Source of the DNA: Solibacillus sp. FSL H8-0538
GTDB taxonomy: Bacteria > Bacillota > Bacilli > Bacillales_A > Planococcaceae
Direction: 5' to 3'
NCBI RefSeq assembly: GCF_038003525.1
Contig: NZ_JBBOPI010000001.1
Span: forward strand, 3,031,001 to 3,095,000
DNA length: 64,000 bases
Under the pieces are notes generated by a model. It saw only the letters and a program-made list of their open reading frames with translations. It made no database searches and was not told the origin of the DNA. The translations under genes were made by a program, and so were the position numbers. This document shows, piece after piece, positions 21,227-63,610 of the stretch. Positions within the stretch are counted from its first letter, which is position 1; the number at the start of each line of letters is the position of its first letter.

Positions 21227-21397
21227 CTAAAAAAGGGGGTTAACAATTGATCCCGATTAATAGGCAGTAAATGCCTGATTAGTGAAACGAACAATGAACG
21301 AGAACATCCCCTATTCATTGAATTTTCACTTTATAGGTTTATCTTACACCTTCTTTGTTTCAAAACAATTACAATTAGATTAAGTACACATTAAAGA

Positions 21398-59461: not shown

Positions 59462-59482
59462 TATTGATATCAGCTATCAATA
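59462..59482. promoter_or_regulatory. Inverted repeat in the hemE upstream region
   Basis: TATTGATA-TCAGC-TATCAATA, a perfect 8-bp inverted repeat 46 bases before hemE and about 80 bases before the hmoB promoter. It resembles a dimeric repressor site; the regulator is unknown. Confidence 0.5.
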
Positions 59483-59555: not shown

Positions 59556-59585
59556 TTGACAAATTGCTTGAATCTGCTTTTTAAT
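59556..59585 (+). promoter_or_regulatory. hmoB promoter
   Basis: A perfect TTGACA, 18 bases and TTTAAT. Transcription from it would create a leader of about 145 bases. Confidence 0.6.
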
Positions 59586-59621
59586 GGAAATAGTAAAGGG
59601 AAACTTCAATTATAGAGCTTT

Positions 59622-59735
59622 ACTTGCAGTTGCCTCCTCTACTTACGCTTTGTTGCTTACACCAAGTATGAATTTAGGGAGCTTACTGCAAGTTAATGCG
59701 TAAAAAAGAACAACTACTAAAATGAGGAGGCAACT
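59622..59735 (+). promoter_or_regulatory. Switch-like structured leader of hmoB
   Basis: Four segments pair. A, ACTTGCAGT (59622-59630), pairs perfectly with C, ACTGCAAGT (59685-59693). B, AGTTGCCTCCTC (59628-59639), pairs perfectly with D, GAGGAGGCAACT (59724-59735), which contains the hmoB ribosome binding site. A and B overlap, and A-C crosses B-D, so the two helices compete. TTACGC (59643) with GCGTAA (59698) can stack inside B-D only. B-D would hide the ribosome binding site and A-C would free it. No match to a known riboswitch class is evident. Confidence 0.7.
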
Positions 59736-59737
59736 TT

Positions 59738-60244
59738 ATGTATATTTATTTAACGTCCGGCACAGCTGATTACATGGAAAAACTAGTAGAGAAATACACG
59801 AAAGAAAATTTATTAATTTTACATGGCAACGGGAATTCTGTGTTATTGCATGAATCCGAAAAAAAATCAGTGTTTGCGATGCCACGCAAGTTCGAGGTCA
59901 TTGATGGAGTTGGTGACTTGCAGCAAAAAGGCTTCTTTGTTTTTCATAATATCCCAGTTACAGAGGAAGGGCGTCCCATTTTTGAAAAGCAATTTTTAGA
60001 ACAGACCGCTTCGCTAAAATCTGATTCTTCGTTAATTGCCTACCGTTTTTTAAGACCCGTTAAGGCAGAGACGTATATCATTTTGACACAATGGCCTGGC
60101 CCTGCTTCCTTTGAGGTTTGGAAAAACTCGAGCCATTATAAAAACAACATCGCCCCATTAATTGAAGAATCAACTTCTACAGTTCAAGCCATTTTTCATG
60201 CTACGGCTTATACAACAACTTATTCTGCACCACCAAAAAAGTAG
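59738..60244 (+). CDS. hmoB: Haem-degrading monooxygenase HmoB-like (ABM domain)
   Basis: The product is 168 residues, matching B. subtilis HmoB/YhgC (166) in length and in position beside hemEHY. The N-terminal 65 residues are specific to this group; the antibiotic biosynthesis monooxygenase ferredoxin-like domain (about 68-165) has FFVFHNIPVTEEGRPIFEKQF and ILTQWPGPASFEVWKNSSHY. HmoB opens the haem ring and helps iron recovery or haem detoxification. Translation may be controlled by the structured leader described above. Confidence 0.9.
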   Translation: MYIYLTSGTADYMEKLVEKYTKENLLILHGNGNSVLLHESEKKSVFAMPRKFEVIDGVGDLQQKGFFVFHNIPVTEEGRPIFEKQFLEQTASLKSDSSLIAYRFLRPVKAETYIILTQWPGPASFEVWKNSSHYKNNIAPLIEESTSTVQAIFHATAYTTTYSAPPKK

Positions 60245-63420: not shown

Positions 63421-63610
63421 GTTGATTTCCGTTGCGGCGAACGCTTTTCTGGGGGCGAGCCTTGAGCCGCTTCGAGGAAATAATGGAACAAAGGCTAAGT
63501 ACGCCACGTCCTGTGGCAACGCCTTTGTGACCAACATAGTGTTGGCCTCATTCCAGGGTCTCAAGCTGCTCGCTAATCCCCTAGAAGTCGTCGCCTCCAC
63601 TCCAATCAAC
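63421..63610. repeat. 190-bp foldback repeat
   Basis: The element begins GTTGATT and ends AATCAAC; its arms GCGGCGAACGCTTTTCTGGG with GGGCGAGCCTTGAGCC and the right arm GGTCTCAAGCTGCTCGC with CCCCTAGAAGTCGTCGCC are imperfect complements. Short hairpins (GCCACGTCCTGTGGC, CCAACATAGTGTTGG) lie in the middle. It is GC-rich and of a type widespread in Bacillaceae intergenic DNA. Confidence 0.8.

Follow-up and report, generated by a model that had tools for sequence, protein, structure and literature searches.

A dispersed structured repeat in the leader of a Solibacillus hmoB-like gene and the helix predicted over its Shine-Dalgarno sequence

How did the leader of an hmoB-like gene come to contain two long helices that exclude each other, one of them covering the ribosome binding site, and do these helices regulate the gene? 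The question arises from a 64,000-nucleotide stretch of DNA from Solibacillus sp. FSL H8-0538 (hereafter referred to as the window), whose initial annotation held that the hmoB leader looks like a two-state RNA switch. The pairings that it described were confirmed at the same coordinates. The segment AGTTGCCTCCTC (59628–59639, + strand; the A arm) is the exact 12-bp complement of GAGGAGGCAACT (59724–59735, + strand; the C arm), which is the Shine-Dalgarno (SD) region of hmoB, and ACTTGCAGT (59622–59630, + strand; the B arm) is the exact 9-bp complement of ACTGCAAGT (59685–59693, + strand; the D arm). The two helices, A-C and B-D, cross, share the bases 59628–59630 and are mutually exclusive. 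We consider it likely that this leader is a structured, mobile-type repeat inserted between the ancestral hmoB promoter and the ancestral SD, in which B-D is a stem of the repeat, hereafter P2, and A-C is a locus-specific pairing that would reduce translation constitutively.

The hmoB locus and its ancestral leader

The hmoB-like gene occupies 59738–60244 on the + strand, beginning with the ATG at 59738, and encodes an ABM-domain protein of 168 aa. It is divergent from hemE, which lies on the opposite strand and was assigned by TIGR01464. The hmoB label is presumptive, resting on the position beside hemE and on a match of modest strength to the ABM domain (PF03992, E=3.8e-6); an NCBIfam search with the protein returned no match. 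Relatives of hmoB were present in 140 of the 201 genomes searched, own genome counted, and the upstream regions of 15 relatives from several genera were aligned with that of the window.

In all 15 aligned relatives, a conserved block of the form AAATGTCATAAAATTGTTCTTTC...TTTTTGACAAA...TATAAATGGAAATAATA reaches the SD within tens of bases. The window's hmoB promoter (59556–59585, + strand) aligns with the TTTTTGACAAA...TATAAATGG portion found in relatives from several genera. It consists of TTGACA at 59556–59561 and a -10 element at 59579–59585 (TTTTAA/TTTAAT) that is weaker than the TATAAA of the relatives. From the conserved promoter, hmoB transcription would be expected to start at about 59592 (59591–59593), which coincides with the 5′ end, or first base, of the repeat described below. 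The weakness of the -10 element could instead be taken to mean that most hmoB transcripts begin downstream of 59640, in which case the repeat would not act in the mRNA. We regard this as quite unlikely, given the conservation of the promoter block across genera and the failure of a search for sigma-70-like sites on the + strand between 59000 and 60400 to find any. The SD region itself lies outside the repeat and is aligned with AAGGAGGGCAAA and similar sequences in the relatives; SD contexts such as AAGGAGGGCAAAGTTATG in these genomes indicate that the hmoB SD is ancestral.

The intergenic region between hemE and hmoB also contains, at 59465–59479, an imperfect palindrome, TGATATCAGCTATCA, and many relatives have similar sequences (TGATATCCATTATCGA and TGATATCCGTTATCA) at the corresponding position. 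It is possibly a Fur/PerR-type box, and as such would be a better candidate than the leader for an input from iron or peroxide.

A dispersed repeat inserted in the leader

Compared with the 15 aligned relatives, the window's hmoB leader has about 105 extra bases, at 59593–59707. It follows the conserved block as far as AATGGAAATAGTAAA, at 59597, then carries the added bases and then resumes with AAAGAACAACTACTAAAATGAGGAGGCAACTTTATG. None of the 15 leaders has the insert at hmoB, nor is there room in them for such a structure. At the two Solibacillus hmoB loci in genomes G047 and G013, no insert was present at hmoB in the alignment region of L024. The genus was represented by only the window genome among the genomes searched, and the insertion was deduced from comparison across genera rather than within the species. 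Deletion in silico of the body and one GTAAA (59598–59704) left a leader that aligned from the promoter through the SD with the unoccupied sites of several genera, and the joined flanks had about the length of the longer unoccupied leaders (L030, L043 and L044). The motif GTAAA stands at both ends of the insert, at 59593–59597 and at 59700–59704 (+ strand), where the consensus of the family described below has ATAAA. We presume that the two GTAAA are a target duplication; the duplication can only be deduced, because the ends of the window copy have diverged (GTAAA, GCGTAAAAAA). The initial annotation did not mention that the leader holds an insert missing from relatives. Among the observations that it had named beforehand as refuting its reading was a lack of conservation of the arms in homologous hmoB leaders; the 15 relatives lack them.

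In a plain DNA search, the middle of the leader matched sites away from hmoB in other genomes (for example L002, L006 and L016). When a full-length copy was used as the query, 36 of the 131 relatives yielded matches, with several to a genome. Full-length copies are 146–163 bp long; their ends are clean (ATAAAGTGAAACTTC...GTTAATGCGGGATAAA) and their flanks unrelated. Members of the family as a whole range from about 115 to 160 bp and end in ATAAA (TTTAT on the other strand). We built a covariance model, R1, from 38 copies, excluding the hmoB-leader locus. R1 matched the hmoB leader at 59593–59707 with 52.0 bits (cmsearch; E=1.1e-10 in 74 kb and 5.7e-9 genome-wide), and the window copy keeps every pair of the model. 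The insert (59593–59707, + strand) is thus a copy of the dispersed, ATAAA-ended repeat, which is absent from the hmoB leaders of the relatives at the orthologous position, as expected of an insertion. It is only 115 bp long because hairpin P1 is missing; the short form without P1 also exists elsewhere, L006 in another genus being a similar copy of 113 bp.

On the whole genome, R1 gave seven matches, five of them at E<1e-6, the hmoB copy included, and two weak ones (E=0.0037 and 0.013). In a sample of Bacilli, matches at E up to 1e-5 occurred in 46 of 399 genomes and 25 of 146 genera, many of them multi-copy. A second copy in the window (21247–21334, - strand; 44.3 bits, E=8e-9) lies 3′ of a trxB-like gene and has kept P1, with its P2/P3 domain reduced; a terminator-like hairpin (GTTGCTTCCATGTG...CACATGGAAGCAAC) comes after it. 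Outside the Bacilli, the Klebsiella grimontii plasmid CP079755.1 (221561–221624) showed an unexpected 82% match to nucleotides 1–68 of the repeat consensus, possibly through contamination or transfer. A blastn comparison of the repeat with plasmids gave no match to a plasmid of the B. cereus group, and a B. cereus-type 16S marker identified no genome of that group among the 399 Bacilli sampled.

The B-D helix is the conserved stem P2 of this repeat, which occurs at many unrelated loci. Its 5′ arm, ACTTGCAGT in the hmoB leader, is replaced in other copies by ACGGGCAGT, ACAGGCTGT, ACGGTCAGT or AGGGGCAGT, and its 3′ arm, ACTGCAAGT, by the compensatory ACTGCCCGT, ACAGCCTGT, ACTGACCGT or ACTGCCCCT, respectively. 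P2 arms of the same copy fitted each other over a mean of 7.9 bp, as against 5.8 bp for arms crossed between copies. An inner stem, P3, is formed by CTCC (59634–59637) and GGAG (59678–59681) on the + strand, as placed by the R1 alignment, again with all model pairs kept. Over the family, 96% of the cells in the structure are standard pairs, and in 20 of the 32 pairs both partners have changed. Of 500 shuffles, none was as good on any measure, and structures slid along the alignment dropped to 24–48% paired. The initial annotation had argued that two such long helices were unlikely to occur by chance, a point that held for the 12-bp helix (see below) and not for the 9-bp helix on its own, since 79 of 1000 leader shuffles reached at least 9 bp. 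P2 is nonetheless real, because its pairs are compensated throughout the family.

These results bear on the proposal that the leader is a dedicated hmoB riboswitch or thermosensor responding to haem, iron or temperature. The proposal draws on the two mutually exclusive helices and on the position of the leader ahead of what is presumably a haem monooxygenase gene, divergent from hemE. It is contradicted by the absence of the leader from hmoB in other genera, and the repeat to which B-D belongs occurs at many unrelated loci. We saw no sign that haem, iron or temperature acts as an input, and HmoB of B. subtilis has been reported as not iron-regulated (PMC5189952). The remark in the initial annotation that the layout fits no riboswitch class known to be described agrees with our search of Rfam 15, which at gathering and at relaxed thresholds returned no relevant match to the leader and no such family among the matches; the layout matches no riboswitch class because it is that of a mobile-type repeat. 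We consider a dedicated sensor of this kind extremely improbable. A known Bacillaceae RNA family, Bacillaceae-1 RNA (RF01690), does occur elsewhere in the window, at 63479–63545 on the + strand (77.5 bits, E=1.4e-12).

The strong RNA-type covariation might alternatively mark the family as a widespread cis-regulatory RNA class that happens to stand before many genes, and not as a mobile element. A crude count over the 174 distinct copies collected gives this idea some substance: 61 have an SD-like motif and a start codon in the sense direction within 95 nt downstream, as against 34 with an SD and start reading away upstream. At ten loci (L054, L070, L106, L133, L136, L156, L227, L232, L233 and L244), the 3′ ATAAA end either directly adjoins a gene's SD or stands no more than about 20 nt from it. 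The family behaves as if ATAAAGGAGG were its preferred target, and a sense bias is to be expected if the ATAAA in ATAAAGGAGG is the target. The genomic positions of the copies moreover appear unrelated, the clean ends adjoin unrelated flanks, and copies also lie 3′ of genes, as at 21247–21334. Furthermore, two or three copies can lie head to tail, with neighbours sharing one ATAAA (G075:C1:713886-714363, G084:C3:41915-42159, G402:C1:488896-489172 and G457:C7:164119-164430); such arrays suggest site-specific insertion at the repeat's own end. A cis-regulatory class in place of a mobile element is therefore very unlikely in our judgement.

The helix over the Shine-Dalgarno sequence

A helix like A-C is rarely reached by chance. 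Perfect inverted repeats of 12 bp or more appeared in only 2 of 1000 dinucleotide-shuffled leaders, and when the SD segment was held fixed and the upstream part shuffled, none of 5000 sequences reached 12 bp on the SD (maximum, 11). In a crude survey confined to the window, with 49 gene starts modelled, the next-best exact anti-SD helix was 7 bp. We also asked how the repeat pairs with the SD elsewhere, using the 38 copies with a start within 45 nt and the 1406 crossed pairs of their arms and SDs. Own pairs had a mean of -12.0 kcal/mol and crossed pairs -12.3 kcal/mol (permutation P=0.82). Because own pairs are no better than crossed ones, the repeat family is not a general device for hiding SDs, and we rejected that idea. 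Only hmoB stood out: it has 12 bp, whereas its arm or its SD reached no more than 8 bp with crossed partners. The A-C helix is specific to the hmoB site.

In predicted folds, the initial annotation's SD-hiding state dominates at equilibrium: it is the MFE state, at -39.1 kcal/mol as against -34.6 kcal/mol with P2 enforced, and the SD is more than 99% paired in the predicted ensemble. Prefix folds of the growing transcript contained P2 until about 59730 and A-C from 59736. The leader as a whole folded only modestly better than its shuffles (z=-1.28; 24 of 200 shuffles were as good). A third helix, TTACGC (59643–59648) with GCGTAA (59698–59703) on the + strand, had been described as compatible only with the hidden state. 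As added support we set it aside, the pairing being at chance level: about three 6-bp helices are expected in leader shuffles, and most of the 15 counted are sub-windows of the two long helices. Its 3′ arm derives from the diverged 3′ end of the copy (compare GCGGGATAAA in A1).

Taken with the insertion, these predictions suggest the following course of events. The repeat, with its ATAAA...ATAAA ends, would have landed between the ancestral hmoB promoter and SD, bringing an arm that joins the hmoB SD in A-C; the pairing may have attained its SD-sequestering length by the accident of insertion or by later polishing. During transcription, P2 would form first and give way to A-C once the SD had been made. 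Since the SD is predicted to be hidden at equilibrium, the insertion probably lowers the translation of hmoB, and the likely outcome would be a constitutive, unregulated reduction, presumably without any ligand.

Two related readings assign a function to the alternative between the helices. In one, later tuning of the insertion has made hmoB translation depend on which of P2 and A-C forms, under the control of some signal, such as transcription speed, an RNase or helicase, a small RNA or temperature. In the other, the insertion made an SD-sequestering switch in one step, with P2 as the on state and arm-SD pairing as the off state, and this switch is now selected to tune hmoB. Selection has some room here, since the A-C match exceeds the length that chance would give: it surpasses every shuffle with the SD fixed and all the crossed pairs, and the predicted energies of the two states lie within about 4.5 kcal/mol, with the prefix folds switching at the SD. 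Arguing in the other direction, A-C could be reached by few changes, because the SD context of the relatives, GGAGGGCAA, already resembles GGAGGCAA. An SD that is almost wholly paired represents, without a trigger, an off state rather than a switch, and the leader was found in only one genome among those searched. We consider a later-tuned switch unlikely, and grant a switch made in one step and now under selection a similarly small chance. The 12-bp match itself may be due to chance, to templated correction between near-inverted sequences or to selection.

Likeness to bcr1 and implications for leader evolution

The repeat recalls bcr1, a MITE-like element known from the B. cereus group (Okstad 2004, Kristoffersen 2011). 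According to PMC6542083, PMC3446304, PMC2267715 and PMC3733652, bcr1 is 147–167 bp long, has the TTTAT motif at its ends, is structured, often lies in UTRs and is restricted to the B. cereus group. The present family, at about 150–160 bp, shares with these accounts the TTTAT ends, the intergenic and multi-copy occurrence, the conserved stem-loop, the head-to-tail copies sharing TTTAT and the frequent location in 5′ or 3′ UTRs; only the ends of the window copy (GTAAA) have diverged. It differs in its distribution, being found in 25 of 146 sampled genera of Bacilli, including that of the window, in contrast to the confinement of bcr1 in those accounts. That the family would work like bcr1 is well supported, the likeness being one of described features.

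Other known systems are less close. RUP, NEMIS and ERIC, which appear in a list in PMC3733652, are likewise short, non-coding, structured repeats found by genes and co-transcribed with them, but by the usual definition they have terminal inverted repeats of 15–30 bp, whereas the present family has only its ATAAA ends and internal stems. As in translational riboswitches and RNA thermometers, an arm of the hmoB leader can hide the SD and an alternative helix can free it; unlike them, the leader lacks an aptamer and orthologous conservation, and its alternative helix comes from a dispersed repeat.

What appeared to be a new riboswitch thus becomes an example of a mobile structured repeat rewriting a leader, and two mutually exclusive helices can arise without regulation. 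Our literature search found no description of a bcr1-like family outside the B. cereus group placed before SDs. Such a family, present in many genera of Bacilli outside that group and often directly before SDs, could alter the translation of many genes. If the A-C helix is under selection, the hmoB leader would be a case of a transposable element giving rise to a regulatory leader.
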